Part shown: piece after piece, positions 9,414-58,993 of the stretch
Layout: each line of letters starts with the position of its first letter
Position numbering within the stretch: the stretch's first letter is position 1
Notes under the pieces: model-generated
What the model was told of the DNA's origin: nothing
The model's database searches: none
Seen by the model: only the letters and a program-made list of their open reading frames with translations
Position numbers and translations under genes: made by a program
Origin: Entrophospora sp. SA101
Lineage: Eukaryota; Glomeromycota; Glomeromycetes; Entrophosporales; Entrophosporaceae
DNA length: 64,000 nt
Assembly: GCA_958430865.1 (NCBI GenBank)
Contig: CAUDNR010001068.1
Coordinates: 1-64,000, forward strand
Direction of reading: 5' to 3'

Positions 9414-9578
9414 AAAATCGTGCAATTCCAAACCACCAAGGTTTTTTTTCTCATTAATAAAATTGAAAAAAACTCTCTATTTCATTGTTACTTAGGTTCT
9501 AAATATTGCCAAAATAGAGAGTTTTTTTCAATTTTATTACTAAGAAAAAAGCCTTGGTGGTTTGAAGTTGCACGATTT
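9414..9578. mobile_element. Foldback (long inverted repeat) element
   Basis: Arms of about 65 bp (9414-9480 and 9514-9578) are near-perfect inverted repeats around a 33-bp loop. The left arm contains CCAAACCACCAAGG and AAAACTCTCTAT; the right arm contains the complements in reverse order. No open frame is meaningful. The structure fits a foldback MITE or a hairpin-forming transcript. The target duplication is not clear. Confidence 0.65.
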
Positions 9579-10503: not shown

Positions 10504-10910
10504 TATATGATAAATGTTGGAGTCATGTGATTTTATAATATTGTGACACTAAAGAATATCATTGCGATTTTTGGATTGAAAATAGGCACTCGGCGCAGCA
10601 TTTGAATACATCCAAAATAATTGGTCTTCTTAAACTTGACATGAGTTAAATTTTCATGTAACTTTTGAAAAAAAACAATGTAGATTGATTATTTAGTTAA
10701 AAGTTATTGAGCTATGTTGGAATTTTGTAAATAAGTTCAGTGCAACAAGAGTAATGTCAAGTTAAAGTTTGATGTATGTTGTAAAAATTTGAAATTGACC
10801 CTCTTATAATTCTGGCCAATTTTGTTTAATGCCAGTCCAAATTATGAAGTAAAATGTTAATTCATTTGTGAAAATTAAATCACAAAATATTTCTTTCCTA
10901 AAATATTATT
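10504..10910. other. Intergenic, nothing recognised
   Basis: AT-rich sequence between the MITE and the relic that follows. I see no gene, repeat or structured motif. Confidence 0.4.
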
Positions 10911-11870: not shown

Positions 11871-12347
11871 AGAATACTAAAATAATTGATTTTATTTCCT
11901 ATTATATATAGATAACAAATTTCATGTATATTCATTAGACATGCCTTTTCATGTGATATACTATTACAAATTACAAATGCACAACAAATATAAGAACATT
12001 ATCACGTGAATTACACAAAAATTAAGATAAGTAAATTTTTTGAATTTTATTAAATCACAGGTTGTGTTTTCTACCATTAACAAATATTATTTCACTATCA
12101 CATCTAATAATTATTGGCATAAATAAGCATATTCGAAAAGTGATAAAATCAGACATCTAATTTACAAAATAATTGGTTCTTTTGTTTCTTTTCCTTTACT
12201 TTCATACACTGCTTTATTTATTATTAGAATAAATATTAAAATATAAAAAATTAAATCTATTAATTATTAAGCAAAATAATTTTCATAAAATATAGTGCAC
12301 AAAAAAAGTTTTTGGAATAAAATGTTTTCCAAATAAACAATTTCTTT
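11871..12347. other. Intergenic, nothing recognised
   Basis: AT-rich sequence with no supported gene or repeat. Confidence 0.4.
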
Positions 12348-12599
12348 TTGATTGATCAACATCATAAAACTGTAACTACTTTATGGGAAAATGGAATTCA
12401 CGATGCCTGTATTTTACATGAATTAACTTCTATTCCGCTTTCTATAATATACAATCATACTAAAAATCTTAGTAATGGGATTTCTTTAGATCCTGAGAAA
12501 TGCTCTGGGAGACCCAGAAATAAATTTTCTACATCCACCGAACTTGCAAATATTTTAAATAAATATCATTCTAATCTCAATATTAGTGGTTGTACATAA
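12348..12599 (+). pseudogene. Truncated Tc1-like transposase N-terminus (HTH region)
   Basis: The 83-codon frame has the layout of the DNA-binding half of a Tc1 transposase: a first helix-turn-helix (TVTTLWENGIHDACILHELT then SIIYNHTKNL), a linker with CSGRPR matching the GRPRK-type hook, and the start of a second helix (STSTELANILNKYHSNL). It stops before any DDE residue. It is related in layout, but not identical, to the transposase at 43408. A 42-bp tandem repeat follows directly. Confidence 0.55.
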
Positions 12600-12638
12600 G
12601 GCTCTGAACAGATCATATCAAAACCAGATCAAATTAGA

Positions 12639-12716
12639 TCCTATTAAATTTCAATCTGGTTTGAACCAGATCAGATCAGATCCTATTAAATTTCAATCTG
12701 GTTTGAACCAGATCAG
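12639..12716. repeat. Two-copy 42-bp tandem repeat
   Basis: The unit containing CCTATTAAATTTCAATCTGG then TTTGAACCAGATCAG occurs at 12639 and again at 12681, identical over about 36 bp. The surrounding sequence is rich in GATCA steps. It may be a satellite-like tail of the transposase relic. Confidence 0.7.
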
Positions 12717-12867
12717 TTCAGTTCAGTTCAAAGCTAGACCAGATCAGATCTTGATGATAATTACCCTAAAAAGATTATTTGCTCCGCTAAAAAAAACTAT
12801 TTTACTATTCATCAACCCGTCAAACCAATGGCTCCACCTCAAAACCAATGGGTTTTTGCTAGTATAA

Positions 12868-13099
12868 AGTATTCATAACGTTATGATCATACCGTACTGG
12901 ATTTTGGGGTTCAAACAAAATCAGCGCATATGCAATGCTGGTAATCAAATAACTGCAAAAAGGACTAGATTAAGTTCTGAAATTGTTGACCAAATTTTAT
13001 TTTTAAAAAGAAATGATTTTTATTGTAAATAAAAAATTAAATTTATGAAAATTTTATAATAGTTATTTTACTTTAACTAAATATGGCAATGGTAATTTT
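12868..13099. other. Spacer with a segment duplicated near 14.7 kb
   Basis: TTTACTTTAACTAAATATGG at about 13067-13086 recurs at about 14700-14720, and both are preceded by AGAAATGATTTT. The two copies lie about 1.64 kb apart and flank the material between, suggesting duplication or insertion. Confidence 0.4.
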
Positions 13100-13945
13100 G
13101 TAACCGGTTAAAAACAAGCTATAACTGGTCAACCGTTTTAACCACGGTTAACCGGTTAAAACGGTTAAACAGTGCCAACGTCAATATTGTATCAGTACAT
13201 TCAATAAAAAGATGAAGGAATTTGCTGAATTTAAAGTGCTATTATCTCCATCCAAAATATAGAGGTAATAAAGGTTTTAGTATTATAAATATTTTTATTA
13301 TTTGAATTTTAATATTTTAACCTAAAATTGTTAAATAATAAACTGCCCTGTTAATAATTACTGGGTGAAACTATTAAATTCATTACCAGTATAACTCGAA
13401 AGATGGAATTTACCAATAAATGAATTAATGAACTTTATACTCAGTTCAGGCAATATATATTGACGCTGATGTTGAGACGTTGGCGGCGAGAGGTTCATGT
13501 TGTAATTCTCGCGACGAAATACCATCATGATGGCCTTTAAAAGATACCGAATAAAGAACCTTTAGATACACCACTCGCTCGGTTGATATGATTTGATGAA
13601 GTTGATTATCTTCAAAATATTGCAATTAAAATCTTTTCTCTTTATTCTCATAATGTCAGTTGCAAAAGATTTTTTTCCCATATTTAGCCAACAGCAAAGT
13701 GGGTTAAATACTCAGTTGGTAGAAAACGTGGGTAAATCCACTCGTACTTTGTTTAAAATGCTAAAAAATTTTTGTCATGTTGGAACAGATTTATCAGAAG
13801 AAAAGTGAATAATATGAAGAATTTGATTTAACAATTTTAGAACTTGCCAATTCAATTCTATAGTAGTAGATTAGAGATTGGGCACCGTTAACCGTTTAAC
13901 CGGTTAAAATTTTGTTTTAACCGGTTTTGATAGGTTTTTTGCAGA
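13100..13945. repeat. Blocks of TTAACCGGTTAA-type palindromes in inverted arrangement
   Basis: Two blocks (about 13100-13175 and 13880-13940) are built from the palindrome TTAACCGGTT and variants, ending in CAGTGCC on one side and starting GGGCACCG on the other, so they are inverted to each other. The interior includes a 71-codon frame (13593-13808) beginning near MSVAKDFFPIFSQQQSG that I cannot assign. A non-autonomous TIR element is the likeliest reading. Confidence 0.4.
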
Positions 13946-15117
13946 CGTTACATGAAAATCGGGTAAAGACTTTTAATGGTGGTGACTATTTTGGGTATAA
14001 CAGGAAATTTTTATATCCAAAATCAGATAAAGCAATTTTTATGTCATATTAATATGAAATTACGGGTAAATATGCACCGTGTTATTTAATTTTTTTTTCC
14101 TTAATATGAAACTTGTAAATTTTAAAATTTCCCATCGATCTTTTTTTTTTTTGGATAAGAAAAAATTAATTAATTGTTAGTAATTAGTATATATATTGAT
14201 AGTGCAGGACATCTATAACTGTCAAGGATTATCACATGACTTTAAAAGTTTATAACTCCTTATAAAAAGAAAAAAATAAACCGATAGAATTAAAGCTAGA
14301 GACCCAAGCTTCATTTCCGTCGATTTACTTTTTCATTTTATTAGAAAGCTTTGAGTTATAAGGTTTCAAAGTTAGAACATTTATATGTGTCTATATAATA
14401 ATAATAATAATAAATTGTAAAATTTCGGAATCATCTTTTGTGTTGGTGACCCGGCTTAAAAAATCCCGTGATACAGAAAATCCTTCCAATAAAAGAAATA
14501 TGATTTATTTAAATTTTTTTTTAAATTTCGGGACTGACGCATTTTATAGTATTAATAGAATAATTAAGAAAAAAGTCATTATTAACTATTATGTAAATTT
14601 AATTAAAATAAATAAATATATTCATACTCCATTTAATATGATTTAGACAATTAATAAATCAACTGCAATTAAGTACTAAAAGAAATGATTTTAGTAATTT
14701 TTTTACTTTAACTAAATATGGCAATGTTCGAACCTTAAGATTTCGCTGATCCAAAACTGTCCTCCATATTACCAACCTCTAAGATATCCATTTGATATAA
14801 AATATTTTTTGAAAATCTTTCTTTTCGAAATATGCGCGAATCAGGTTATAAATAGTAAAAATATGGCTAATGTATGATATAATCAAAAAAGAAAAAAGGT
14901 TTCTTTTCTTTCACAATGAAGATTTTTCATTACTAAAGTCTTCACCCATCGGCAATTTCACCTATAAAAGCAATTAATTACTCAACAGACACCGGGAAAT
15001 TTTTTTTACAGGATTTACACAGATTGTGTTATATAATTATATTATTTTACATATTATGTTTATATTTTAATAATTTATAATTAATATTATTATAATATCT
15101 ATTGTTTATTTCTATTA
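13946..15117. other. Intergenic, short ATA microsatellite only
   Basis: AT-rich, without a supported gene. A short (ATA)n tract lies at about 14394-14413. The open frame at 14440-14646 is low complexity and not supported. Confidence 0.35.
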
Positions 15118-15985
15118 GTCGCGTGTCAATAATTCCTTTAACTATAGTAATAGATCTATTTTTGAAGAAGAAGAATGAGGGTTCCTTAGCAAAAACCGGT
15201 TCCGAGGTCCTCTGACCAAATTTAAGTCTCTTACATAATATTAATCTATAAGCTATAAGCTATACACATGTAAACTCGATAAGTCGGATGCTTGTTTAAA
15301 GTGCTCGATAATACATGTGTAATTGGTGAAAACATTAGACCCGTTTACTTAGTACAATAATGAAATACAAGGCTTGAAGTATTTACTTTATATATAAAAA
15401 ACATATGCGCAACATATTTGCAGAGATCGTCATCCAAAAATTTATAATGTTAACTAGAGAACCCCAAATATTGATACAATGTTATTATTATATACAATAA
15501 GAATTATCATTAGTAGTATGCGTAACGATGATTCGTTTAACCGTAGATCTATTTTTTTGAAGAAAGACAAATATTGACACAATGTTATTGTTAATAGTAC
15601 GCGTAACAATATTTCGTTTAACCATAAATCTATTTTTTTGGAAGATAAATATTGACACAGTATTATTTATATACAATAAGAATTATCATTAATAGTCGTA
15701 TCATTCATTCATGTTGGTTTTTCTTTGATGTCGCGTAACAATGATTCGTTTAATTTTTTGAAAAAGACAAATTTGTCATTAATGGGTAATGATCCATTCA
15801 TTACCTATTACCACTAGGTGTTTTTTTTTCTTTGATGGTCGCGTAACAATAATTTGTCGTTTAACCGTAGGAAGAAAACAAATATTAATATGCAATAGGA
15901 GTATGATGGTATTACCTATTACCATTCACATAACAATAATTTAACCATGTATTCATTTTTGAAGAAAGACATGTGTTATTTTAAT
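15118..15985. repeat. Degenerate tandem array, GCGTAACAAT units
   Basis: The motif GCGTAACAATnATTCGTTTA followed by an ACCGTAGATCTATTTTTTTG-like and GAAGAAAGACAAAT-like segment recurs, with decay, at about 15121, 15520, 15601, 15733, 15841 and 15931. Spacing varies from 80 to 130 bp apart from the first, more distant unit. The CG-containing core is conserved while spacers vary, so the core may be a binding site or simply an old satellite. Confidence 0.55.
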
Positions 15986-16049
15986 AAAATTCTTTTTTTT
16001 TTAATACATAATAGGTATAAATAAAATAAAATGAACAATTCTAACGGTA

Positions 16050-16270
16050 GGGAGAGACTCAATATGGTATAACTTTTGCAGAACGTATGGTATGGTATGG
16101 TATAGCCCATATTTTTCCATATCAAGTCACACAAAATTTTATTCTAAATCCTTTTTTGGTGGGGTGAAGGGAAGTATGTTAGATTTAAGCATTGGTATAC
16201 AATCATTTTATTACACTTATACAATACCATACCGTACGTTTTGCAAGAGTTATACCATACTGAATGTCCC
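16050..16270. mobile_element. 221-bp MITE with long inverted ends and TA flanks
   Basis: Left GGGAGAGACTCAATATGGTA… and right …TACCATACTGAATGTCCC are imperfect inverted repeats about 50 bp long, bordered by TA (16048-16049 and 16271-16272). Both arms contain a (GGTAT)n-like run (ATGGTATGGTATGGTATAG on the left). No coding content. Confidence 0.6.
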
Positions 16271-16272
16271 TA

Positions 16273-16730
16273 TACTCCAATTCTAAAATCGAATATCATT
16301 TCTTAATTAGGATAAATTTTGCGGTGATCCTATTTTATAATATCATGTGACTTTCGAGTGGTTGAAAATATTTGATCTATATTTTATCATATTTTTGTTT
16401 GTTTACCAAAGTTTTTGTATTCGTATTCAAAAATGAATCGATAAATAATTGGTAACTAAATTGTCATACAAATAACATAGCATACATATGATTTCAATTG
16501 TTTTTTTTTTTTCAAAAAAAAAAAAAACCTTCTGCTTTAAGAAATAATAAATATTACAATCTTCAATTCATATTCAGCCCAATTTTGAAAGTGTAATAAT
16601 CTTCATTTTTCATTTTTTTTTGGGTAAATTTGTATTTAACATTTTACTTTCCTTCAGTTATCATTCATCTATCGACCCAAAAATATATTTTATTTATTTA
16701 TTCTTCAGTTTTATTTTTTCTAAAAAAAAA
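16273..16730. other. 5' flank of the DOCK gene
   Basis: AT-rich with poly-T/poly-A runs at about 16500-16530 and 16610-16620. Probably promoter and 5' UTR; no specific element is supported. Confidence 0.35.
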
Positions 16731-19700
16731 ATGCCAATAATTACAACAAGCACATCCGCTGTTTCTGCTTGGACGCCTTTGACACAATTTGCTTATGGAT
16801 TTGCTATTTATCCTTTTACTCCTGGTGCGCAAAACAATTCTTCGTCAGATTCTATAAAAGATGCTCAAAGCATAAATGAATCAGTACCGATAGTTAATAA
16901 TAATAATAACAATAGTGATAATAATAATAACAAAAATAAAAATGAATCAGATGTTAATAAAAAGGTCGATGGTGTTGTTGATTTAAAATCTAATGAAAAA
17001 AATGATTTAATTTCTAAAAAAGATAATAAAATTGATTCTGATTCAAATTCAAATCATAAATTAGTAGATCATGATTCTCAACCTGACAATGAAAAGGTTT
17101 TAGATGAATCAGGGAATCATGAAAATAATATAAAAAAAGATAATGATGGTATTAGTAGTACTAGTGACAAAATTATTATTAATGCAAATAATAATGTCAT
17201 TTCTTCGGATTCAGCATCAATATCTTCAAAATCATATATAAGAAATTCACATGTAATATCATATCAAGTTGCACTTGAAGTTGGCGATGAAGTTTATGTT
17301 TTTGAAGAACAAGGTGCTTGGTATCGTGGTTATGTTGTCTCTAAATCATGTCAGACTGGAGAACCTCAGGTGTTTGTTGGAATTTTCCCAAAAAATCATG
17401 TATATATAAAAGAATATCTTGATGATGTCAAATTACAAGTTAACGAATCAACAAAATCTTTTAATGATGCTGCTTCACTTGATTCTACTACTCGTAATGA
17501 AAATGAAAAACCTGCTTCTATTAATGACAATGATGATAATGACAGGCCTCCTCCACCACTACCTTCACTTGAATGTGGTGATGATACAATAAGTGGAAAG
17601 AATGAACCTTTGATAGATGAAATTTCAAGCGCAGTCAGAGAATGGTGTAGTCTTTTACCTACTTATTTGGAAGAAAGAAGATACTCCATGTTTAGAACTG
17701 TTAAAGATCAAATAAATGATTTATTACAGGGTCGAAGGCAACTACTTGCTCAAACTTTATCTCAAGATGAACTGAGCAAGCTACGTAAAGAGCTTATCAA
17801 TAAACTTGTTTCTGGTAACATAATTCAAGATTTAGATATTATTGTCAGGCATCCCGAAAAAGGTTTTCTTGCTGATGAAACAAATGTATCAGCTATTCGT
17901 CTATATCAATTGCAAGGTCATTTATCAATTCTCAATGCAGAAAAATTAAAACATGATTCATCGTTACCTTTCAATAGCCCTACTATTTTAAATTCACCAT
18001 CAATAACATCACCGTCACTCCCCGCTATTTTACTGCAAAATAATTCCTCCTCTTACACAACAATACCAACAATTGCCACTAATGATAGTGTTAGTCACGC
18101 ACCAAAGTTTTACCATGTGTTTTTGGATTTAAAAGCTTGGGTTGCTTCAATTTCTGCTTTTGGTGAATACACTGAATTATATTTTTCTTTGTACACGAAA
18201 ACAGATTCAAGATTTATTACAGAAGAATATTGTATTATACTTAATCATAATGGTGTACCAAAGGATGAATCAAAAATTCAAAAAATCAGAACATTGTTTA
18301 CTGATCTTTCTCCTCATGACATTCAAGATCAAGTTTTTCTTATTTGTAGGATCATTCGTACAGGAAGCATGAAAATGGAAAACAAAGATAAAGACTTTTC
18401 AAAAGACAGCAACTCTGTAAAATCATCATCATCATCCTTTTCTTCGCAAAATAATTCCAATGGCAATAATAGTACCAATATAAGATTATCTCCACAAACT
18501 TTTCGTAGACCCTTTGGCTGTGCTATACTTGATATAACTCATTTGATCCAAGGAAAAGAAAAAGAATCTATGAGTGAACACGTAATGCAAATCTATGTGC
18601 CAACTCAAGGATCTACTTTCGCTATTTTGCATGAAGACATTATTTATAACCGTGTTAAAGAGTTTGAAAAATCTCCAAGAGCAGAGATGATCAGTGTATC
18701 AATTCGTTCATTTTATGGTGAAGCTACAACAATCATCAAGGAAAATACTGCTCTACTTCAAGATATCACTATTACATCTCGTCTTGGATTTGCTGATGTG
18801 GTATTTCCAGGTGATGTAAGGAACGAAATTTATCTTAAACTTTGGTCTGGTGATTTCACACAAGGTAGAACCACAACTGCTAGAAATATTCAAGTAACGG
18901 CAGAAGTTAGATTAAGTTCTGGCGAAGTTTTAAAAAATGCCATCTCTCAAGGATCTGGTGAACCACCTGTAACACAGTTTGAGTCAATTGTTTTCTATCA
19001 TTCAAACAATCCAACTTGGGGTGAATTTATAAAATTGACAATTCCATCTGCTTTATTTGAGCAAGCTCATGTTTTTTTAACTTTTAAACATAGAACAACA
19101 AAAGATAAAAAAGAAGATAAATTTTTTGCTTTTGGGTACTTGCCACTATTTCCTGAGAAAAGAGCTTTCATTAGTGATGGAAAACATACTTTGACTTTAT
19201 ACAAATATGATAAGCAACTAATAAATCCTCCATCTTATTTAAGTGTGCCCTGGTCATCACTAGCCACAATAGTTGATACAGCCTCTGTACATCTCACAAA
19301 TAATTCTCAAATGTCGTTACATAAATTGATCTCCCCATTAAAAGATACAGCTGTAATTTGGACTTATTTATGTTCTACAAAATATACACAGAATGAAGTA
19401 TTACTCAAGCTATTAAATTGGGAAAAACAATTATTATCAAATGAAAATGAGTTGAAGTCAGTTTTAAAAAAATTTACTTTTGTTAGTGAGGTGGAAATTG
19501 TTAAATTTCTTCAAGATATTTTTGATGCATTATTTGGTATTTTGGTATCAGCAAGGAACCAACAAGGAGAACTAGATGATTTGATATTTAATGCATTAGT
19601 AACTATTCTTGGAATAGTTTCTGACAGAAGATTTATGAATTTTAAGCCTGTACTTGATGTATATATTGAAAACCATTTTTCCTGCGCTGCTGCTTCATCT

Positions 19701-43240: not shown

Positions 43241-44510
43241 CAAAACTTTTTGGAAAATTTTCATGCATTTCAAACGTTAATAACATTCTGAAAATTAAAA
43301 ACTATTCGTATCATATTTTGAACACATGAACAATATGTACTAAACTAAATTAATACATGATTAGATCATTTGTTTTGATTTGATTTTGTTGTAAAATTGT
43401 TAACGTAATGTCATCTTCTGATAAAGATACTCAAAGAAAAAGTATATTACAATTGTGGTAGAATGGAATAACTTCTGCAAAAGAAATACATTCCAGAACT
43501 GGCATTACAATGTCTACTGTCTATTATAACCTTAAAAAATTGAATGAAAAAGGTGTTAATTCGAGAAAATCTGGAGGTGGTTGTCCCAAAAAAATTACTG
43601 TGCATGAATCAAGAGCGATCGGCCAATACTTGCACCATGATCCAAGACTTTCCACAAGAACTTTGTCAAACAAATTATCAAACAATATCACCAAAGTGTC
43701 TCATATGACTATTTCAAGACATTTGGCAAGTTTAGGCTACAAAAATAATTTGCCTTTAAAGACACCTATGCTTACTGTTGCCCATAAAGAAGCTCGTGTT
43801 GGTTGGGCAACAAGACATCTTGATGACAACTGGGAGACCACTTTATTTTCTGACGAAACTGCCTTTCAGTTGTTCAGAAACACAATAACTCAATGGTACA
43901 GAGGCGAAAGGCCAGTATGAAGAATCCCCAAAGATTGCACTAAAATCTTTGCATGGGGAGGTTTTTGTATGCAAGGAAAAAGCTCTCTTTTTTGCTTCAG
44001 GGGAATCATGAATGCAAATTTTTATGTTGATATTTTGCAAAGGCATAAACAGGAAATTAATAGATTACTTGGAAGCAATTGGCGCTCCCAACATGATAAT
44101 GATCCAAAGCACACAAGCAGGGTTTGTCAGACATTCCTCAATGAAAATTTTCCCGAAGTTATGGACTGGCCTTCCAATAGTCCAGACTTAAATCCAAACA
44201 AAAACCTTTGGGCTATTGTCAAAAGAAATCTAGAAATGCATATGCCTCAAAATCCTTCAGAATTAGAACAGTACATGACAGAAGAATGGGATAAAATCCC
44301 AAATAATATTCTAATCAACCTTGTCAGCTCAATGAGAAGGAGATGTGAGATGATAATTGAGAACAATGGTGAGAGAATAAACTATTAACTTTATATCAAT
44401 AAAAACTTCAGATTTTAAGCTTTATTTTGACATATTTTTCATTCATTTTTATGTGGTAACTTTTGAGCTATGGACAAATAAAAAATTCCAAAAAGTTTTG
44501 TTACACACTG
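43241..44510 (+). mobile_element. Tc1/mariner element, left end trimmed
   Basis: The right end is CAAAAAGTTTTGTTACACACTG followed by TA (44511-44512). The left end begins CAAAACTTTTTGGAA, matching the inner part of the inverse of the right end but lacking about ten terminal bases (CAGTGTGTAA). The element contains one transposase frame with two stops and a changed catalytic residue, so it cannot move by itself. Confidence 0.7.
43408..44388 (+). pseudogene. Tc1-type DD34E transposase with two stops and E-to-K change
   Basis: One reading frame of 326 codons is interrupted only by TAG at codon 18 (43459) and TGA at codon 171 (43918). The N-terminal half has paired helix-turn-helix regions (ITSAKEIHSRTGITMSTVYY; SHMTISRHLASLGY). 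The DDE triad is in place as Asp149 (LFSDET), Asp230 (QHDNDPKHTS) and position 265, 34 residues further on. Position 265 is Lys in SPDLNPNKNLW, where the family has Glu (PxENLW). The enzyme would cut and join transposon ends at TA sites; here it is inactive on three counts. Few lesions imply fairly recent death. Confidence 0.9.
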
Positions 44511-44512
44511 TA

Positions 44513-46639
44513 CATTGATTATTCTTTAGCCACTCTGATGTAAATCTATTTTATATTTTCACTATTATTAATAATACTATTGCTATTGCTAATCCTTCAT
44601 CTTCTATATCGTCATCTTTATATTATTCCATTCTTTATTAATTCCTTGTAAGGTTTTTAAATAGAATGCAATAATTATCCATCACATAATCCACATATTT
44701 CAGTTTTCATTTCACCAAATGAAAAATTTGGATTAAACTCAGTCTTTGTTAAACAATTGTTTGAAATCTTTTAAATTTCCCTTGGGTATTTTTGATCACC
44801 AGTTGGCTAGATTTATGTTTTTTTCTAGATCAATCTTTTGGTTGATATTATAGAGCTGATTTAATAGGTTTGATAATATAATGAAAGCCAATCAATCAAC
44901 AATCACAAAAAAAAACTCACTTGCATTTTTATTAAGTATTTGTAGTTTATTTTTTATATTGATAATAATTGATAAAGATTTGGTTTTTTATATATATTGA
45001 TTTTGATTTTGGGTTTTGTTTTACAATTGTAAAATACTAACAAGAATTATGGCTATGATTTTTTTAATATTATTAATAAAGGAAGAATCCAAGACAAGGA
45101 AGGGAACTAGGCATTCATTAACAAACATATTTAATTTTATCAAAAGTATTATTTGGTATGGTTGGTTCTGGAGATATGTTGTTTGTTAATAACCAGAGAT
45201 TCTCTTTTTGCATTGATACCTTATTTTTTTTTATTGACCAATAGCCCAAATACTGCATTGAAAGTCAAAACATAGAATGGAATTTGTCATGTTGTCCCCT
45301 TATATGGTGATAGGTATAAATTTTTTTAAACAATTGATCACTCTTCCCTTTTTTCATCGTTATTAGATAATTTCAGTGTTGAAAATTGTACTGCAGCTTA
45401 TTGAAAAGTTAAAATCACGTATTTATAACAGACACAACCTTGCAAATATTTTAAAGAAGCATTTATCAAGATGTTGAAGAAGTAATACACAAATTGATGC
45501 TATTTTAATTCACTTAATTTTAATTATTTATTTTTATGGTAAAATTTAATTAAAAAATTATTTACTATTTAAAAGCAATATATCCATCAGAAATAGTGAG
45601 GTTAATCCTGAGGATATTTGACAAGAAGTGGTATTTAACATCTATCTATACTCTAACCCCCTAGAATTGACCTCACTACTTCTGAAGGTCAAATGGTCAT
45701 TCATTATAAATGGCATGGGTCTGTATGGATGATAGAGTTTATTAGAAATCTATCATCATCATCTTCTTCTTCTTCATCATCTTCAACCTCATCATCAACA
45801 TCTTCAATCTTGTTGTTATCAATAAAAGAATTTTTATCATTATTGATAAAATGAACTGCAACAACACCACCATCTTCATTAGAAGTCATGAGTTAGATCA
45901 TTGTTATCATTAAAAGTGTGTGTTGAATCTTCTTCTTCTTCATCATTATTGATCAAAAAAGGGACTTTAATAATATCATCTCCCACTAAGTAAATAAAAT
46001 AAAGTTTATAAATAAATATTTAAATGGTTTCTAACATCATTACAAATATTGTCTTTTAAAAAACTAGAAAATCTCTTGAAATAATTACTCCAAGCATTTT
46101 TTTTCTCCTTTAATAATACTTACTAATTTTGTAATCCTCCTAAAATCTGATTTCTTTTTTTTTCATTTTTTATTTTTTAAAAAATTTATTTGTTGAGATG
46201 GTTACACATAAAATCAAAATATTATTAAGCAAGCATTGTACAGAGAAACCCTCAATTTTTTTTTATTGTTAGTAAACATGGAAGCATTATTTGGTATGGC
46301 TCTGAGGAAGATATGCTATTTGTTGATAATCAATGATTTATTTTTTTTGTATTAACACCATTTTTACTTATAAATAGTGAAGTGAGATCAAAACATGAAC
46401 GAAATCTGTTAGTTATGTCTTTTACATTATATAGCAATAGGTAATTATATAATATTCCTTATCGTGATAACCATTGAAGATAAATCACATACAATACGCA
46501 CATAAAACTGCTCTTAGACAGTTTGTGAACACTAAGAAACGATTCGATATGCAACATTTTATTGCTCGAATATTTAAAACATTCTCATCTTCCATATGTT
46601 ACAGTTAGGCTAATTTGACTTGGTTCCCGATGATATAAC
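44513..46639. other. Decayed DNA with two copies of one coding relic
   Basis: Two similar coding-like pieces lie about 1.1 kb apart: near 45148 (SIIWYG… GSGDMLFVNNQRFSF after a one-base shift) and near 46275 (SIIWYGSEEDMLFVDNQ then stop). Both are followed by a similar decayed tail. The family is unknown. On the minus strand 45704-45889 has an Asp/Glu-rich low-complexity frame not supported as a gene. Confidence 0.35.
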
Positions 46640-46933
46640 ATGAATCAAACTTCAGAGAGGGGGGGTGGGCCAGTCCTGGAGTTTATTAATTATATTGTTG
46701 TCAAGGAGAATGTTAAAGCCTCTCGCTTTTCTGAAACCTTCCAACTTGTAATTTGCCTTAACTCATGGATGATAATCGATAAGTTAAAGCCTAAACCTAA
46801 GTCCTGTTTAACAGAATTCGAGACAGATTCAGATCCCTCTGAATCAAGTAACTTCAATGCTTCATCTGATTCACCTGATCCAGCCAAGAAAGAGCCACTC
46901 CAACCAGAGGATCAATCTAAAACAGAAATATAG
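46640..46933 (+). CDS. Hypothetical 97-residue protein
   Basis: An ATG-started frame reads MNQTSERGGGPVLEFINYIV and ends in a Ser/Asp/Pro/Glu-rich tail (SDSPDPAKKEPLQPEDQSK). Base composition is less AT-biased than its surroundings, which favours coding. No domain is recognised and no introns are needed. It could equally be an exon of a decayed gene. Confidence 0.3.
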   Translation: MNQTSERGGGPVLEFINYIVVKENVKASRFSETFQLVICLNSWMIIDKLKPKPKSCLTEFETDSDPSESSNFNASSDSPDPAKKEPLQPEDQSKTEI

Positions 46934-47024
46934 TATAATTTCCAAAAAATAGTAAATATACACATTATTTATTAAATTTAAAGAAAAAAAAAGTAAATAT
47001 AAAATAAATTAACCTTTTCTACAT

Positions 47025-47780
47025 TCATAGTTGCTGTAATCTAAGGTCCCTTCCGTGTGTGTAATCACTTAAAAATATATAAATGTAAATAAAAGTTTTT
47101 TCAACATGCTGTGATATATTTTTTAATGATAAAAAGTTAAAATACAAATAAATACCTTGTCTTAATAAACCAATTAAAACATTAGTCTGTAGTGAACGTT
47201 CATGAGATTCGTTCATTACAACAGTATTATAATGATCAAGTTCTGATGCTTTAAATGATTCACACCATCAGTTATAAGAAATTAATTTTTGTCTTGTACA
47301 TTTTATCAGAGTACTTTCAGAAGTATGTCTTCAAAATCGAATTTCATAACCCACTGTTGTTCCAAGATTACACTAAATAAATTAAAAACTTCTTGATGGA
47401 TTTATTTATCAGTTACTAATAAATATTAAAAATTTTATTTGCATCCATTTCTTCACTACACGTTTAGCAACCAGCACATGTCAAGGTTGTGTACATCCAA
47501 TAATCCCATACTTGCTATAACCATTTTCATAAAGATATTATGTAAGATGCGTGGTTTTACCTGAATTTGTTTCTCCAACAATAATAAATAGATTAATCTT
47601 AGAAATTAAGGTATGTTACTATTTTTTATTTATTTATATGATTTGTCTATTTGTTTATATGCCCATCTAATAATTTTTAAAAGTTCTTCATGAGATGCAA
47701 AAGCTGGTAAAATTCTCTCTATTTTTGATCTTGCTTTCAAATGTGATGCAAATTGAGAATCACCCAATTTCATTATTTTG
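47025..47780 (-). pseudogene. PRP16/DHX38-type DEAH helicase relic
   Basis: Reading leftward the relic follows the PRP16 splicing helicase: DSQFASHLK, a piece like LPAFASHEELLKIIR, an apparent intron at about 47590-47650, motif I VGETNSGKTTHLT, YLYENGYSKYGIIGCTQP, AKRVVKKW, TVGYEIRF, and MNESHERSLQTNVLIGLLRQ, where motif II should read DEAH. Stops after HLT and in the CTQPRR motif, together with frame changes, show that it is dead. PRP16 itself remodels the spliceosome after the first step. Because an intron position seems kept, it is a duplicated gene fragment rather than a retrocopy. Confidence 0.6.
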
Positions 47781-47860
47781 TGCTATTTAAAAATTTTTTT
47801 TAAGAAAATATATTTATTATTATATTGCGAGTAATAAATGTCGCGCTACGTTCAAATTAA

Positions 47861-50800
47861 TTATCCCTTAAACGAAATTGCGTCCAAATCTGGACGCAAT
47901 TTACAATTGTGACTCAAAAATTATAAAAAAAGATATTTTCCTGCAGTCTCACCACAACCTTTCTTATTTCATAAATGATATTCAAAACCCTCTACTTCTA
48001 TTAAAAAATGTATTTTGGGGTTACATATTACAAATAAAGAAATAACATGTGTAAAACAAAAAAGTTTTCTTTGCTGATCATTTTATAATAAAATGAAATT
48101 CCGATGGAGTTTGAAATCCTATATGCAATACTAATTAAAGAATGTTTCTAAAACCATCGTTGTTAATTAACTGCTTGTGGGACTCATTATATTGATATTT
48201 TTGTGTTTTGGAAAATAGACATAATAAAATATGGAATATATTAATAGAAATAAATGTATTTTCGATTTCAATATTAATATTAATATTAGTAAATACATAC
48301 GGAAAAGACATTTATACTATTACTGTCTTAAATATGGAAATGGTAATGAAAAAGCATTCTCTCCTATGGGCGATCCCATATTAGTTATTAATTATGAGTA
48401 TTACTTGAAGGAATTAAATTCCTGAAAATTGTAAATAACTTTGATCTAAATTTTTTATAAATACCAGGACCTTCAGACAAATAAAATCCAACTCAAATTA
48501 TTTATTTGAAAATCAAACTCAATATTTGAATAAAAAATAAAACAATTTTTAACAATTTATTTTTAATCTTGAAATAATTGTTTTTAATAAAAGTCAAATT
48601 TTAATTTAACAATAAAAACTACTTTTAATAAAAATCAAAATGAATCCTGAACAAAATATTAATATTTTTGAAGATTCCAACGATCCCAGCAATGGATATT
48701 ATATTGCTAGTATTACAAGAAGGCTGGGTGGTTTTTATGATAATGAATTATCTGAAGATTTTAATGATCCAGAAACAATCAATGATAATGAAGATGGCGA
48801 GGATGATGAAGGTGAAACTTCAAGTTTTAGTAAAATTAGGAGCAGTAGAGAAATCAGAAGCAACCATGGAAGAAGAGAAGGAACTAGAGGTGGTAGAGAC
48901 ACACAACAAATTGATCTTCCAGATCCACCATATTTTAATCAATTTAATCATCAATTACCATTGCATGATTCTGAAACAAATTTGCCATACGAATTTAACA
49001 ATCTTGATCTTGTCAATCCTATCCAAATTTTTAAATTATTTTTTACAAATACTATTTTGAGGACAATTGTAAGCAATACCAATATCTATGGTAAAAGTAA
49101 AAACGGAAACTTATGGATAGACATTGACTTGTTTGACTTGCACATTTGGCTAGGAATAATCATTTATGCAGGTTTATTTAAAACACCATCAATTCGGGAC
49201 CTTTGGAATAAGGATATAAAAATGCCAATACACCCCATTGCATCATATATGCAGATTAGAAAATTTGAAAAAATAAAAAACTTCCTACATATTTCAAACA
49301 TAGAGGAGGCTCATCCATTTTGGTATTCTAAACTTGAACCATTAGCATCCCATATAAACACAATATCGCAATCCATTTTCACTCCATCATCTAATGTTTC
49401 TGTAGATGAAATGATTATAAAATTTTGTGGCAGAAGTGCACATACCTTTAGATTAAAAAATAAACCAACACCAGAAGGGTATAAAATCCTAGCTTTATGT
49501 GATGCAGGATACACTTTCTCTTTCATATTTACTTCTAGAACTGAAAAAGAAGGTGAAGTTCAATCAATTGGAAATCTTGGTAGAATAGGAAGTCAAGTTG
49601 CACATTTAGCTTCCAGATTACCATCACATAAAGCATTTAATATTTACATGGATAATTATTTCACAAGTATCCAGTTATTTAAATTTTTACGTGAAAAGGG
49701 GATTGGTGCATGTGGGACCGTTCGTACAAATTCTTCAAGATTCCCTCTGTTCTTAGAATAAAAAATAAAAAGTTAGATTGGGACACACTCTCTGGTGTTG
49801 TTATTGATAATGAAGTATTGGCAATATTGTGGATAGATAATGGTCCTGTTACAATGCTATCCACAATACACAATATTGTTGGTGATGAAAATAAAATAAA
49901 TAGAAACAGACGTCACCCACGTCTAACAAGTACCAATGCAGCCAAAGTAAACAAAGTCTTCGGTAACAGCACAAGAAAGATATTGTCAATCCCCAAAATA
50001 ATCAATGATTACAATCACCACATGGGTAGTGTGGACATTGCAGACCAGTTGAGGTGTTATTATTCAACGCAACAAAAAGTCAGAAGAACCTGGATGCCTA
50101 TATTTTTCTGGTTGTTGGATATTGTAATCATCAATTCTTATTTAATATATAAAAAACGGTATAATAATGAAATGACTCATAAAGAATTCAGTTTAAAACT
50201 TTCATGGGAATTAATTGAAGAAGGATTAGATAAAAACAATGAAAGAGAAACCCGCGGACATACCATACTTGAATCATCTTCATCTTCATCCAGAGCTTCC
50301 TACATTAAGCAAAGATCAGAATTAACCACAGAAAGGTTAGTGATTGAAAATAATCATCTTCCAGAATATAGAGAAAATAGAATTGCGTGTGAATGGTGCA
50401 AATTTGAGACCCAAAGGGACGAAGGAAAATCTCATAAGTCTCAAAATCGTTCTTATATTTATTGTACAGCATGTAATGTTGCATTGTGTTGTTCTCAAGC
50501 TAGAAACTGCTATATAGATTACCACACAGAGACAGATTGCTGGTCTTGTTTTTTTAATTTTATTATTTTATTATTTATTTTGGTTACACAATACTTGAAA
50601 ATCTATACGTAAGTTCTTTCTTTATATTTAAAAAAAAATCGTAGCCTAAATTAGCATCATTTTTCTAAATAAAGTTGTTAAATGGAACATGTATTATTAC
50701 ATATCTTACGGTTTTAGGCCTGGTTTCAAATGATGAAATTTTTTACTAATCGCAGCTTACAAAAAATCCAAAAATTAGTTTTTTTTTTAAAATGTGTTTA

Positions 50801-50999
50801 TTTTAGTATCAGTAAAACTTCTACAAAAAATTTTTTTTATTAAAAACGAATGTTTATACATAAATTTCATAACCTTTTCTATCGAAAAATCAAAAAAAAT
50901 TGGTATTAGTTAGTGATTTTTTTTGTCTAGTGGGGTCTACAATTTTTTGAAAATTGCGTCCAGATTTGGACGCAATTTCTGTTCGTTTAAGGGATAATA
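47861..50999 (+). mobile_element. piggyBac-type element with TTAA target duplication
   Basis: TTAA flanks both ends (47857-47860 and 51000-51003). Just inside, the left end TTATCCCTTAAACG and the right end CGTTTAAGGGATAA are inverted repeats, followed on each side by a perfect hairpin palindrome ATTGCGTCCA-n4-TGGACGCAAT (n4 is AATC on the left, GATT on the right). The 3.1-kb body carries one transposase with a single frameshift. TTAA targeting and the transposase family agree. Confidence 0.85.
48640..50612 (+). pseudogene. piggyBac transposase (DDE_Tnp_1_7 type), one frameshift
   Basis: The first frame (48640-49761) ends early; the second (from about 49740 to 50612) continues the protein. 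The switch lies near 49735-49750, between GACGTVRTNSSRFP and SVLRIKNKKLDW. An acidic N-terminus is followed by the catalytic core with Asp256 (SVDEMIIKF), Asp338 (YMDNYFTS) and a third Asp in HHMGSVDIADQLR; then the C-terminal Cys-rich zinc region (CEWCKFE, YCTACNVALC). These match the DDD triad and cysteine domain of piggyBac enzymes, which excise precisely at TTAA. Apart from the single shift all parts are intact, so it is a young element. An unrecognised intron at the shift is possible but no GT-AG pair fits. Confidence 0.85.
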
Positions 51000-51095
51000 T
51001 TAACTAAATTTTCTCCATTTTCACTCTTTTTTTAAAAAATATATATATTAATATATATATATATTATATAAGTTTTTTTTTAATTATAAAAAGCA

Positions 51096-51679
51096 ATGGC
51101 CTGTTGTCAAGCTTTTCAAAAGCGTGCTAGATTAGCATGTTTAAAATTAAGACCAACATGCTCAACTTTATGTTTGCCCTCCATAACAAAACTGTTATGT
51201 TACTTTACCATTATACCCCTTATATTTTTTTTTTACTACTCAATTTTAGAAAAGTATTTTGATAAATTATCACTTACTACTGAACCTCCTTACCATCAAT
51301 ATACTACAGGTTTGTTATTTTTACTTTTAATCTATCTATATACATACATGCATATTTAATTTTAACTTAATGATAACTAGAACCAGATGATTTGAGCGAG
51401 CATATTCACAATTATTAGACTTAAACTCTAGATGGAAACCTAGTCTACCCTCAAATTTAACTGTAGTTTCTATAATTAAAAATAATGACAATGTTGAATT
51501 ACAATTGAACTCTATATTTAGTCAAACAATTATGCCACAAGGCATGATTATAATTGCCTCCAAAAATACAGCTAAAAAAGTCAAACATGTCATTAAAGAG
51601 AATGATAAATACAGTGGTTTTGATGTATGGATACATGTTATGGAAACAAACAAATTTAGAATCATTGGTTGGTTAGAAG
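51096..51679 (+). pseudogene. Type II membrane glycosyltransferase-like relic, truncated
   Basis: Exon 1 (51096-51309) begins MACCQAFQKRARLAC and has one hydrophobic segment (LLCYFTIIPLIFFFYYSIL, residues about 33-51), the layout of a type II Golgi membrane protein. A GT-AG intron leads to exon 2 at 51381. After PDDLSEH the frame shifts, then LTVVSIIKNNDNVELQLNSI and FSQTIMPQGMIIIAS resemble the N-terminal Rossmann half of a family-2-type glycosyltransferase. The frame ends abruptly at 51680, where a MITE is inserted. The assignment rests on pattern only; no catalytic DxD is left. Confidence 0.4.
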
Positions 51680-51893
51680 CAGTGTTGTGCCATTTATGGT
51701 TCCAATAAAATTTCATTAGAGCATTCTAATAAATTCCAATTGGAATTGGAACATTCCAAATGTGGTTCCAATGAAGTTAACCAATGAAATTCAATTATAG
51801 TGTCATACACACGAATTTTATTGGTTAATATCAATTGAAGATCTACATTGGAACATTCCAATAGCGTTACAATATTCCAATTGCACAACACTG
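51680..51893. mobile_element. 214-bp MITE with CAGTGTTGTGC ends
   Basis: CAGTGTTGTGCCATTT and the inverse of TTGCACAACACTG form the ends. The interior consists of many ATTCCAATTGGAA and GTTCCAATG palindromic steps. It cuts the glycosyltransferase-like relic. A target duplication is not evident. Confidence 0.6.
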
Positions 51894-53744: not shown

Positions 53745-56700
53745 TCAACTTTCACATATTTGAAGAGCATTATTACGCTCATCAGGCGACGGTAACTCTT
53801 CATATTGATTTTTTACAGGAGGAAATTTATTTATTGTTGCAATGAGATCGTTCATCCCTATTAAAAAAAAAGAAAATAATATATAAATATATTATATAAT
53901 CTCTCGAATATATTATATATATAAAATTATTATTTACTTAATGGTTTAGTCACATATTCATCCATTCCTGAATAAAGGCATTTTTCTCGATCTCCTATCA
54001 TTGCATGAGCTGTTAATGCAATTATTGGAACATGACCACCATATTGAGATTCATAATCACGAATTTTTTGTGTTGCTTCAAAACCACCCATTATAGGCAT
54101 CTGAACATCCATTAAGATCTAAATTAAATAATATTAATTATCATAAATAATTATAATTAAAAAAAAAAACAATTTGACAATAACAATAACAACAAAATAA
54201 TAAATAATAATAATAAATTACCAAATCATATCTTTTATATTTAAAGGCTTCAACAGCCAATTGTCCATTAGCAACTATTTCTACTTTATGACCAAATTTC
54301 TCTAAAATTTTTACTGCTAATTTTTGATTTACTACATTATCTTCAGCCATTAAAATATCCAAAGGCTGTTGTCTTGTACAATCACTTGGTATTGAAGAGT
54401 TAGATTCAAGTGCAGGCAATAAAGCATTCATCAAATCAGGTAAAGTTGATGGTGTACTACTATATGAAGTAATTCCAAGATCTATACAACTCTTCATATT
54501 TAGTTCTGGTATTGTAGGTGCTAATAATACAATTGGAATATACCTGAGATATGTTATTTTTCGTAACCTTTCAACTATAGTTAAATCATCAACTATTACT
54601 GTATCAAACAAAGGTACATCTGATTTTCTAGATGCTGTGATAATAGCTGCTTCTTCAACAGAGTTTGCAATTTTTGGTTTAAGCCCTAATTTTTCAATCA
54701 TACCAACAATTCCTGTTTTGTCATGTAATGTATCAATAAATAATATATAACGTCCTTGCCATGGTAACATTTTTTGTTCAATTTGTTCTGGATTTGTTGT
54801 AGCAGGTGTGACTTTGACTGTGAAAAAGAATTCAGAACCTTTACCAAACTCACTCTTGACCCATAAATTACCACCCATCAAGTTAACTAAACGTTTGGAT
54901 ATTGAAAGTCCTAATCCAGTTCCCCCATATTTTCTTGTTGTAGATCCATCAGCTTGACAAAATGTGTCAAAAATCAGTCCAATTTTGTCTGCTTGAATTC
55001 CTATACCAGTATCTTTTACACAGAACGTCAAAAGTACTTGATCACCTTCTGTTTCTGATGTATCTACAGAAAGCATCACTTGTCCTTCATTTGTAAATTT
55101 CATTGCATTCCCTATAAGATTTGTTATGACTTGTCTCAAACGTAAGGGATCACCAATCAATTGATCAGGTATACCATTATTCACATCATATATAAGATCT
55201 AGTTTCTTTTGAGTTGCTTTAATGGCAAGAGTTTTTAAAACACCAAATACAGCAGAGCGAAGTGAAAATGAAATTTGTTCAATTGTCATACGTCCAGCCT
55301 CAACTATATGTATATAAATAATATATTAGTAAAATTACTCCTTTCTTTAAGATAATAACAATAACAATATAACAATAATCTTACTCTTTGAAATATCCAA
55401 AATATCATCAATAATTGTCAATAAAGAATTAGCTAAAGAACTAACTATTGTTAAATTTTCACGTTGTTGACGTGTTAACTCTGTTTCAAGTGTCAAGGTT
55501 GTCATCCCTATAATACCATTCATAGGGGTGCGAATCTCATGTGACATATTTGCCAAAAACTCACTCTTACTTCTATTAGCTAATTCAGCTGCTTCTCTTG
55601 CAGCAGTATTTTTTTGAATACTTTCTCTTAAATTATACACCATTTGATTTATTTTAGTTTTAAGAGAATCCATTTCACCAGATGCATCAACAGTAATAAA
55701 TTGAGTAAAATCTCCGTCAGTTGCAGCAGCAGAAATTTGTGCAAATGCACGTACTTGAGAAGTTAAATTTGCTGCCATGGTATTGACATTAGATGTGATT
55801 TCTTTCCAAGTTCCCCTTACATCCTTAACTTGGGCTTGAACACCTAATTTTCCTTCAGTTCCCACTTCTCTAGCTACTCTTGTTACTTCAGCAGCAAATG
55901 TAGATAACTAATAAATGGTTATTTAAAATATAAATAAAAATATAAATAAAAATATAATATAAATATTATATATAAAATAAAAGAATAATTGATCAAACTT
56001 ACTTGATCAACCATAGTATTAATTGTATTCTTTAATTCAAGGACCTCCCCCCTAACATCAACAGTGATTTTTTTACTTAAATCACCACGAGCAACAGCTT
56101 TTGAAACATTTGCAATATCACGCACTTGAGAAGTGAGATTTTCCGCCATAGTATTGACGTTGTCTGTTAATTCTTTCCAAGTACCACCCACATCTTTAAC
56201 TACAGCTTGACCACCAAGTCTTCCTTCAGTGCCCACTTCTCTAGCTACTCTGGATACTTCAGCAGCAAATGTATTGAGTTGATTAACCATAGAATTTACA
56301 GTGTTTTTAAGATCTAGTATTTCACCCTTGACATCAACGGTAATTTTCTTGCTCAGATCACCGCGGGCTACAGCAGTTGTAACTTCCGCAATAGAACGTA
56401 CTTGAGTTGTAAGATTTGCCGCCATTATATTTACATTATCGGTCAATTCTTTCCAAGTACCATCAACGTCTTTAACAACAGCTTGACCACCTAATTTACC
56501 CTCCGTTCCTACTTCCAAAGAGACTCTTGTTACTTCGGTGGCAAATATTTGCAATTGATCGACCATAGTATTTATTGTTTTCTTTAAATCAAGGACTTCA
56601 CCCCTGACATCAACAGTAATTTTTTTACTTAAATCACCACGAGCAACGGCTTTTGAAACATTAGCAATGTCACGCACTTGAGAAGTGAGATTTTCGGCCA

Positions 56701-58993
56701 TGGTGTTAACATTGTTCGTTAATTCTTTCCAAGTACCTCCAACATCTTTAACATCGGCTTGACCACCCAGAATACCTTCAGTACCTACTTCTCTGGCTAC
56801 TCTAGTTACCTCAGCAGCAAACATACGAAGTTGATCAACCATAGAATTTACAGTGTTTTTGAGTTCTAGTATTTCACCTTTGACATCAACGATAATTTTC
56901 TTACTCAGATCACCACGAGCTACAGCAGTCGTAACTTCCGCAATAGAACGTACTTGAGTTGTAAGATTTGCTGCCATTATATTTACATTATCGGTCAATT
57001 CTTTCCAAGTACCATCAACGTCTTTAACAACAGCTTGACCACCTAATTTACCCTCCGTTCCTACTTCCAAAGAGACTCTTGTTACTTCGGTGGCAAATAT
57101 TTGCAATTGATCGACCATAGTATTTATTGTTTTCTTTAAATCAAGGACTTCACCCCTGACATCAACAGTAATTTTTTTACTTAAATCACCACGAGCAACG
57201 GCTTTTGAAACATTAGCAATGTCACGCACTTGAGAAGTGAGATTTTCGGCCATGGTGTTAACATTGTCCGTTAACTCTTTCCATGTACCACCAACATCTT
57301 TAACTACAGCTTGACCACCCAGAATACCTTCAGTACCTACTTCTCTAGCTACTCTAGTTACCTCAGCAGCAAACATACGAAGTTGATCAACCATAGAATT
57401 TATAGTATTTTTGAGTTCTAATATTTCACCTTGCACAGGAACTTTTACTTTTCTGGACAAATCACCACGAGCTACAGCAGTCGTAACTTCAGCAATAGAA
57501 CGTACTTGAGTTGTGAGATTCGCTGCCATTAGATTCACATTGTCGGTAAGATCTTTCCATATTCCACCAACATTTTTAATGTTTGCTTGACCACCCAATT
57601 TCCCTTCAGTCCCTACTTCAAGTGATACCCTTGTTACTTCAGTTGCGAATGTTTGTAACTGTGTTAAACAGACAAAAAAGTGTGAATGTATGTATAAATA
57701 TATAAATGAAAATGTGTATATAAAAAAGAGATTTACCTGATCAACCATAGTATTTATGGTATTTTTTAAATCCAAAATTTCACCTCTTACATTAACAGTT
57801 ATTTTTTTACTAAGATCTCCTCTAGCAACAGCTTTCGACACATCAGCAATATCACGAACTTGAGCTGTTAAATTTGCAGCCATTGTATTTACATTATCAG
57901 TAAGCAATTTCCAAGTCCCACCAACACCTTGTACTTGAGCCCTTACCCCTAGTTTCCCTTCTGTACCTACTTCATGAGCAACACGGGTAACTTCTGATGC
58001 AAAAGAATTTAATTGATCAACTAAAAAAAATAAAAAAAATAAAATTCACATTAAAAATGAATAATAATAGTAAATAATATGATTCAATAACAGTAATAAT
58101 AATAATAAATTATTATTGAGATTCTTACCCATAGTATTTATAGTATTTTTTAGTACAAGGGTTTCACCTTTAACTTCAACGGTAATTTTTTTGCTTAAAT
58201 CACCATGTGCTACAGCCGTACATACTTCAGCAATATCTCTTACTTGTTCAGAATGATTACTAGCCATCATATTTAGATGTATCATCATTTCTTTCCAGTC
58301 ACCATCTAAATATTGATTTTTAGCTTGAATTCCTAATTTTCCTTCTTCACCAACTTCACGAGCAACTCGAATCAACTCAAAAGCCACATTGTCAAGTTTT
58401 TCAACCATGGTGTTGATTGCATTTTTTAAAGTAAGCATTGGACCTGATGAATAAGGACAAGTAACTCTTTTTTTGAAATCTCCAGAAGTGACGGCTGTGG
58501 CAACAGTGGTACATTGGTTAAGACATTCTAAACAAACACGGTCATCGTGAACCAAAGCAGGTGGTGTTGAAGGAGGACTTTCCTGACTTATATAATCACT
58601 GGTAGGTTTATTTGTAGAATCATTGACATAAGCATGTATAGAAGAAGATTTGTTGAAATCATCTGAAGGAGCGACCAACTGAACAGTGTTGGGATAATTG
58701 TCGCCATTAATAAGATTTTGCACTTCTAAACATTCATTTGGAGTGATAGGTAAAGAGGGATTTCCGCCGTTTATGATCACAATTGAATCAGACTCGCTGA
58801 GAAATGCTTGATATTGAGCGACTTGTTTTTCAAGTTGTAGGTGACGCTCTAATAGTTTTCTTAATACACAGTCCAACTTTACTGTATTTTCATTTTGTTG
58901 GCCTTGATATTGTAAATTCAAGCAATACTCTGTATTTCCATCATGAAGATTTTGAAGGACATCAGTAACATATCCAATAACATCCGTCGTCAT
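53745..58993 (-). CDS. Group III hybrid histidine kinase with ten HAMP units (Nik1/Os-1 type)
   Basis: Seven exons (58993-58129, 58020-57737, 57658-56003, 55907-55385, 55303-54222, 54118-53938, 53857-53745) join in phase to give 1567 residues. No membrane segment is seen, so the kinase is cytosolic. After a 170-residue leader come ten HAMP units of about 92 residues ([11 protein letters not shown]… core), then the dimerisation H-box [15 protein letters not shown] with His1058, N-box [16 protein letters not shown]-boxes DTGIGI and [10 protein letters not shown], and a receiver domain with [10 protein letters not shown], phospho-acceptor Asp1474 ([12 protein letters not shown]) and VTKPL. Such kinases control the HOG osmotic-stress relay through Ypd1 and are the target of phenylpyrrole fungicides. 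Filamentous-fungal members usually have fewer HAMP units. All catalytic residues are intact. Confidence 0.95.
56003..57658 (-). repeat. Triplicated 552-bp HAMP-pair unit (exon 3 of the kinase)
   Basis: Exon 3 is 1656 bp, exactly three units of 552 bp (184 residues, two HAMP units each). The middle and upstream units share an identical stretch of about 290 bp (from near 56440 and near 56992, period 552) and differ by only a few bases elsewhere, while the third is more diverged. This is recent unequal exchange or gene conversion within an exon that keeps the reading frame. Confidence 0.9.

Follow-up and report, generated by a model that had tools for sequence, protein, structure and literature searches.

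A homogenised tract within the nine-repeat HAMP array of a group III histidine kinase from the arbuscular mycorrhizal fungus Entrophospora sp. SA101

Introduction

The stretch of DNA analysed here (the window, 64,000 bp) comprises positions 1-64000 of contig C931 (72,605 bp) in an assembly (G000; 101.35 Mb, 2123 contigs) of Entrophospora sp. SA101, an arbuscular mycorrhizal (root-symbiotic) fungus of the order Entrophosporales. On its minus strand, from 58993 to 53745, lies the intact gene of a complete group III (Nik1/Os-1 type) hybrid histidine kinase, whose N-terminal part is an array of HAMP repeats. The reading that comes out ahead, by a modest distance over even chances, is that this array of nine repeats is old, that gene conversion or unequal exchange between its own repeats has reshaped its middle, and that the protein should still work. 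A preliminary description of the same DNA had presented it as a ten-HAMP kinase containing a freshly duplicated 552-bp module; what was observed there is right, and the cause assigned to it was over-read.

The HAMP array and its internal identity

The array is made up of a leading HAMP followed by nine full repeats of 92 amino acids (u1-u9), delimited with a profile built from the protein's own repeats. Each repeat has one canonical HAMP motif, which together with the leading HAMP gives the ten previously counted; however, two Pfam models, HAMP and HAMP_2, are found in the array (7 and 9 stretches passing individually), and in CaNik1 each 92-residue repeat is a pair of HAMPs (PMC3848655), so that the ten become about 19. 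By this pair-per-repeat count the 552-bp module comprises four HAMPs in two repeats. Exon 3 (57658-56003, minus strand), which encodes most of u3 through u8, has AG/GT borders, is in phase 0 at both ends and is 1656 bp long, exactly the 3 × 552 bp described before, so the in-frame higher-order module stands; of the range given for it, 55919..57658, the exon end at 57658 is correct, whereas 55919 falls in the following intron. Odd and even repeats differ from each other, and the period of the exon is therefore 552 bp; Tandem Repeats Finder detects half of this period, 276 bp × 5.9.

When exon 3 is compared with itself at a 552-bp shift, 108 of 1104 positions differ, and the longest uninterrupted match spans 295 bp, its first copy (56973-57267) covering the end of u4 and the start of u5 and the second (56421-56715) the end of u6 and the start of u7. 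This tract, reported earlier as about 290 bp, holds 97 codons and about 65 synonymous sites with zero differences, placing an upper 95% bound of 0.045 on its silent divergence. The near-identical units are not successive thirds of the exon but u4+u5 (57391-56840) and u6+u7 (56839-56288): u4 (57116-57391) is a near-copy of u6 (56564-56839) with a synonymous divergence (dS) of 0.09 and a nonsynonymous divergence (dN) of 0.012, and u5 (56840-57115) is a near-copy of u7 (56288-56563) with a dS of 0.12 and a dN of 0.010, all on the minus strand. The remaining 34 of the 36 repeat pairs have dS values from 0.54 to 2.89, so that the silent divergence of the module is far from equal to that of the other units, an equality that had been named as fatal to the duplication claim.

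The similarity of the two pairs is nevertheless uneven, since 17 of 552 sites differ between u4+u5 and u6+u7 (8 between u4 and u6, 9 between u5 and u7) and identity is limited to the 295 bp. Within the 574-bp block of high similarity, the tract has 0 differences in 295 bp, against 18 in the other 279 bp. Shuffling the 108 mismatches within codon-position classes for 20,000 rounds gave a longest run of 131 bp, with 295 bp reached in 0 of 20,000, and random placement of the 18 mismatches in the 574-bp block produced a run of 295 bp in 1 of 20,000. A further low-difference patch lies in u3 (57538-57467), where 5 mismatches in 72 bp adjoin 10 in 24 bp. The low dS of both module pairs, together with the zero-difference tract inside them, points to two layers, an older likeness between u4-u5 and u6-u7 and, inside it, a younger tract with sharp limits. 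The mark of gene conversion is an identical stretch with abrupt ends in a more diverged pair, silent sites included, and this is what the 295-bp tract presents; identity over the full 552 bp, silent sites included, is the mark of a recent duplication of the whole module and is absent.

Age of the repeat number

Nine repeats, full or truncated by the gene model, are present in Funneliformis (F. caledonium, F. geosporum), Racocetra (R. persica, R. fulgida) and Gigaspora (G. margarita), and nine also in a record of Cetraspora pellucida from which the N-terminus is missing; in Acaulospora morrowiae (P0125) and Diversispora epigaea (P0130) the full repeats number seven. As nine repeats are common to other genera, the number is old, and the change in Entrophospora concerns the content of the middle repeats; by this sequence comparison, an array of nine was in place before several arbuscular mycorrhizal families diverged. 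The module can thus hardly be called freshly duplicated, given that nine repeats also occur in Funneliformis, Racocetra and Gigaspora, that its two copies are 17 sites apart and that recent identity is confined to the 295-bp patch.

A tree of 66 of the 73 repeats (7 under 75 amino acids were dropped), built from few columns, is consistent with a change confined to the middle. Entrophospora u1, u2, u3 and u9 each fall with their positional counterparts from all genera sampled (100/100, 96/90, 95/99 and 100/100, respectively), while u4 pairs with u6 of the same array (99/96) and u5, weakly, with u7 (81/77). In the other genera u4, u5 and u7 form positional clades, those of u4 and u5 excluding Entrophospora, and Entrophospora u4 and u5 are without the residues that mark u4 elsewhere. 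By eye, the residues KKII are shared by u5 of Entrophospora, Funneliformis, Racocetra and Gigaspora, with KKIT or KKIS in u7, and Acaulospora and Diversispora have one repeat that begins like u5 and ends like u6.

Internal homogenisation is ordinary for poly-HAMP arrays. The comparison covered 156 proteins, a set that favours long arrays (one search behind it scored the 7997 candidates with most words in common and listed 120) and includes bacterial proteins; full-repeat counts range from 3 to 24 and take both odd and even values. Stretches of internal identity most often lie one or two repeats apart (offset 1 in 39 and offset 2 in 40 of the 156 proteins). An internal identical stretch longer than the 124 amino acids of this kinase occurs in 22 of the 156 (20 fungal-named, 2 unnamed), with a maximum of 507 amino acids. 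The proposal that arrays of this family change by whole HAMP pairs does not hold as a rule: it is ruled out by the odd and even counts and by the composite repeat of Acaulospora and Diversispora. On HAMP repeat number in Glomeromycota, the open-access literature yielded nothing by title or by the start of the abstract, and the word HAMP is absent from the main text of a study that reports group III kinases in early diverging fungi (PMC5285503).

Conversion, re-duplication and other explanations

Conversion as the mechanism is favoured by the patchy similarity of the repeats and by their closeness to others of the same gene. In the Entrophospora lineage, u4-u5 would have been remade to look like u6-u7 and u3 would have gained its u5/u7-like patch, the 295-bp tract being homogenised last, by gene conversion or unequal exchange between in-register repeats. 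The register of such an exchange would be 552 bp, one odd plus one even repeat, which would keep the frame, the coiled-coil order and the odd/even alternation, so that the protein should still work. Because steps of 552 bp preserve frame and odd/even order, such changes could survive.

A decayed paralogue of the kinase on another contig (L010, G000:C1463:139000-148000, with matches at 141973-144543) bears on this point. It contains stops and frameshifts, has 81% DNA identity in exon 3 with two modules in its exon-3 part, and no match to the catalytic part was found there. Window u3 DNA is 80.4% identical to its own u5 and 77.8% to u3 of the pseudogene, in which u3 and u5 are only 62.9% alike; likewise, window u4 is 87.7% identical to its own u8 and 81.8% to the pseudogene. 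Repeats that are closer to others of their own gene than to the same position of the paralogue indicate concerted evolution.

Several points weigh against an unbroken array rewritten from within. Both near-identical pairs are explained almost equally well if u4-u5 were lost and u6-u7 then duplicated anew, and what backs the unbroken array over that history comes down to the patchiness and one residue (KKII), read by eye. The tree has few columns and forms no positional clades for u6 and u8, and the other Glomeromycota were compared at the protein level. At the 17 sites that separate the modules the pseudogene is mixed (4 u4-like, 2 u6-like and 2 neither; 5 u5-like and 4 u7-like), which leaves it equivocal between conversion and re-duplication. 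Part of the 295-bp identity could, moreover, be assembly consensus if the sequence is partly short-read based.

The strongest competitor, possible and yet clearly behind internal rewriting, is that the Entrophospora ancestor lost u4-u5 and then regained the number by tandem duplication of u6-u7, a history that comes closest to the preliminary description although the duplicate would not be fresh, having since diverged to a dS of about 0.1, with one conversion patch in addition. It accounts well for an offset between u4+u5 and u6+u7 of exactly one 552-bp unit with low dS on both repeats, for Entrophospora u4 and u5 clustering with u6/u7 and lacking the residues that mark u4 in other genera, and for the pseudogene having just two modules in its exon-3 part. 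Set against these, nine repeats are shared by several genera, so that two events are needed to get back to the number; u5 retains the position-5 marker KKII; and the divergence is patchy (0/295 against 18/279).

Rather unlikely is that the 295-bp identity is itself a product of assembly, short-read assembly or polishing having collapsed near-identical copies into a single consensus, although a sharp 0/295 tract within 6-7% divergence, in an assembly that is possibly short-read based, is what such merging would leave. A second, shorter contig (C1509, discussed below) has the tract once and agrees with both copies, the public protein P0039, from a record of different size (21,627 bp), agrees with both at the protein level, and longer internal identities are found in many other fungi. 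That selection alone keeps the repeats alike, as the low dN of u4-u6 and u5-u7 might suggest, is highly improbable, as the tract shows no change at about 65 synonymous sites while the silent sites of other pairs are strongly diverged.

A second, shorter copy of the kinase

A second copy of the kinase lies on C1509, of which positions 1-17204 align end to end with 54816-72573 of the window's contig. Between 54816 and 56419 there are 0 differences, at 56420 there is one silent single-nucleotide polymorphism (SNP; GCG/GCA, alanine), and over 57348-72573 only 7 letters differ, five of them together with a gap in 64630-64676 and one at 59511. C1509 is without exactly one 552-bp module, and its product remains in frame with the order u3-u6-u7-u8-u9, that is seven full repeats, both u4 and u5 being missing. 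The switch point between the two contigs lies within a perfect 55-bp repeat (57348-57402 = 56796-56850, minus strand), and the missing 552 bp span equivalent points of its two copies. A k-mer size of 55 is common in SPAdes. The public protein P0121 (Entrophospora sp. SA101, partial) equals the short form, with 0 substitutions and 184 amino acids missing, and its record of 17,204 bp has the size of the aligned part of C1509; the record of P0039 has 21,627 bp against 72,605 bp for the window's contig. The short form as an ancestor from which the long one was freshly duplicated is ruled out: the missing module is 17 sites from its retained partner while the flanks are almost identical, which makes the long form the source of the short one.

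C1509 is likely to be an artefact of amplification or assembly, in which a template switch or a graph jump at the 55-bp repeat dropped a module. The junction falls inside a perfect 55-bp repeat, and redundant contigs occur elsewhere in the assembly: one contig contains a perfect inverted repeat of 8,897 bp (C1435), another has an internal repetition of 4,357 bp at 100% (C1761) and two share 8,255 bp at 100% (C1706 and C879), these three cases coming from six comparisons of stretches picked for being matched twice. The methods of the published SA101 assemblies point the same way: 24 single nuclei were amplified, Illumina and nanopore reads were assembled with MaSuRCA or SPAdes and merged by Lingon with nanopore scaffolding, and duplicated genes increase with the merging of nuclei (PMC6987183). 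Against an artefact, the silent SNP at 56420 sets C1509 apart from any path through the window's contig, and the present assembly matches none of the seven in Table 1 of that article, so its method is inferred.

The preliminary description had raised the possibility of length alleles between nuclei or strains, and a contig without exactly one module is what these would look like, although an artefact is judged likelier. That nuclei or haplotypes with nine and seven full repeats exist, C1509 recording a 552-bp deletion between the 55-bp repeats, is accordingly a doubtful proposition with some evidence behind it: a single locus, 17.2 kb nearly identical, a clean in-frame difference of 552 bp and P0121 matching the short version. 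In addition, the SNP allele (T on the plus strand) stands with u7-specific neighbours in a combination absent from the window's contig, so that C1509 is not merely a path through that contig's own sequence. On the other side, the overlap sits at a contig end, redundant stretches are abundant in the assembly, the published SA101 work merged amplified single nuclei and had duplicated genes (PMC6987183), a genuine exchange would more probably have fallen in the 295-bp tract than in a 55-bp repeat, and low variation among nuclei is reported for Rhizophagus irregularis (PMC11152072). Less probable still is the full picture in which nuclei in a shared cytoplasm carry nine- and seven-repeat alleles of the one osmosensing kinase by way of in-register exchange, which would make a mixed set of receptor set points possible in a single mycelium. 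Were the short contig real, there would be a functional length polymorphism within one multinucleate isolate; as an artefact, it cautions about repeat-bearing genes in assemblies of amplified single nuclei.

Gene structure

The gene has seven exons and six GT-AG introns and encodes a single open frame of 1567 amino acids. Exon 1 (58129-58993, minus strand as all others) begins with the ATG at 58993 and encodes the N-terminal region, the leading HAMP, repeat u1 and the beginning of the splice into u2, ending at a GT donor; exon 2 (57737-58020) carries repeat u2 as far as ...MVDQ. Downstream of exon 3, exon 4 (55385-55907) encodes repeat u9 and the beginning of the histidine-phosphoacceptor domain (HisKA), exon 5 (54222-55303) the remainder of HisKA, HATPase_c and the beginning of the receiver domain, and exon 6 (53938-54118) the receiver domain, with exon 7 and the stop codon at 53745-53857. 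The intron borders at 57659, 56002 and 58021 cut the repeat at or beside one place (MVDQ|L on both sides of exon 3, M|VDQL at exon 1/2), and the six repeats within exon 3 are intron-free.

No P0039 residue (Entrophospora sp. SA101, 1532 amino acids) is substituted in the window protein, which is 9 and 26 residues longer where the gene models differ. Pfam applied to P0039 returns HAMP, HAMP_2, HisKA, HATPase_c and Response_reg, each over its cut-off, and HisKA, HATPase_c and a C-terminal receiver domain are thus present in one chain, whose aligned residues all agree with the window protein. Of 119 NCBIfam matches, none of the 25 listed exceeded its cut-off, and a search of the assembly for the Hpt family gave 0 matches, which is uninformative for a small intron-split gene. 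The window protein has 98% identity to the Entrophospora sp. SA101 protein and 80-83% to Glomeromycota orthologues, which are histidine kinases of the same architecture. Among the orthologues P0078, P0083, P0087, P0093 and P0123 the repeat number is the same as here, and four of them give that identity over 99-100% of the query; in contrast to these orthologues, in which u4 and u5 keep their positional forms, u4 and u5 of Entrophospora resemble u6 and u7.

Relation to known kinases and possible function

The kinase resembles the group III kinases (Nik1/Os-1; CaNik1, DhNik1, TcsC/NikA) in having N-terminal 92-residue HAMP repeats, HisKA, HATPase_c and one receiver domain and in needing no predicted membrane part. 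It differs from them in having nine full repeats and a leading HAMP where five to six are reported (PMC3848655), and in the odd/even higher-order period of 552 bp. Five to six repeats are not treated as defining group III, since the number varies between species, as is also described for fungi (PMC5159414) and as seen among the 156 proteins above. Concatenated HAMPs of two alternating kinds, here the Pfam HAMP and HAMP_2, are likewise found in Aer2-type poly-HAMP chains, although Aer2 itself has three N-terminal HAMPs (PMC3570549). Structures of fungal-type poly-HAMP fusions have been solved (9trk, 9trj), and 9trk_A matches residues 610-882 of P0039 with an E value of 8.8e-83.

The signalling role of the window kinase is probably that of its family, whose members answer osmotic stress and phenylpyrroles through Ypd1/Ssk1 and Hog1. 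By analogy with yeast Nik1, the array would act as a rigid relay in a cytosolic dimeric kinase and hold the basal state, and osmotic or fungicide-type stress would switch the kinase, feeding the Ypd1-Ssk1-Hog1 relay. In CaNik1, deletion of all HAMPs activates Hog1 and deletion of single pairs lowers fungicide susceptibility (PMC3848655), while for DhNik1 both repeat order and the contact between repeats 4 and 5 are important (PMC5159414). As repeat deletion changes the osmotic and fungicide responses of these yeast Nik1 proteins (PMC3848655, PMC5159414), an array in which sequence passes between repeats, and whose repeat number may vary, would offer a natural experiment on the way the signalling threshold depends on repeat number and order.

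Related genes and redundant sequence

Shorter paralogues of 900-942 amino acids, with three full repeats and a leading HAMP, are found in Entrophospora sp. SA101 (P0133, P0135) and E. candida (P0134, P0138); the C-terminal half of P0134 looks, by eye, the same as that of the long kinase and may reflect a chimeric assembly or conversion. The receiver-domain end of a second, P0135-like kinase lies on the opposite strand at G000:C1509:25769-25855, just past a run of N, its body being unreadable.

Other parts of the window also recur in the assembly. Positions 1276-3000 are 100% identical to C1402:15098-16822, either through redundancy or through recent duplication, 5491-10518 (5.0 kb) is 99% identical to C471, and about 10052-10518 recurs at at least 37 other places at 88-95%. 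The 7.9 kb of 44000-51866 are 100% identical to C424 and enclose a young element of about 3.1 kb (47861-50999) with imperfect inverted ends of about 50 bp, of which the assembly holds at least 5 other near-full-length copies at 99-100%.

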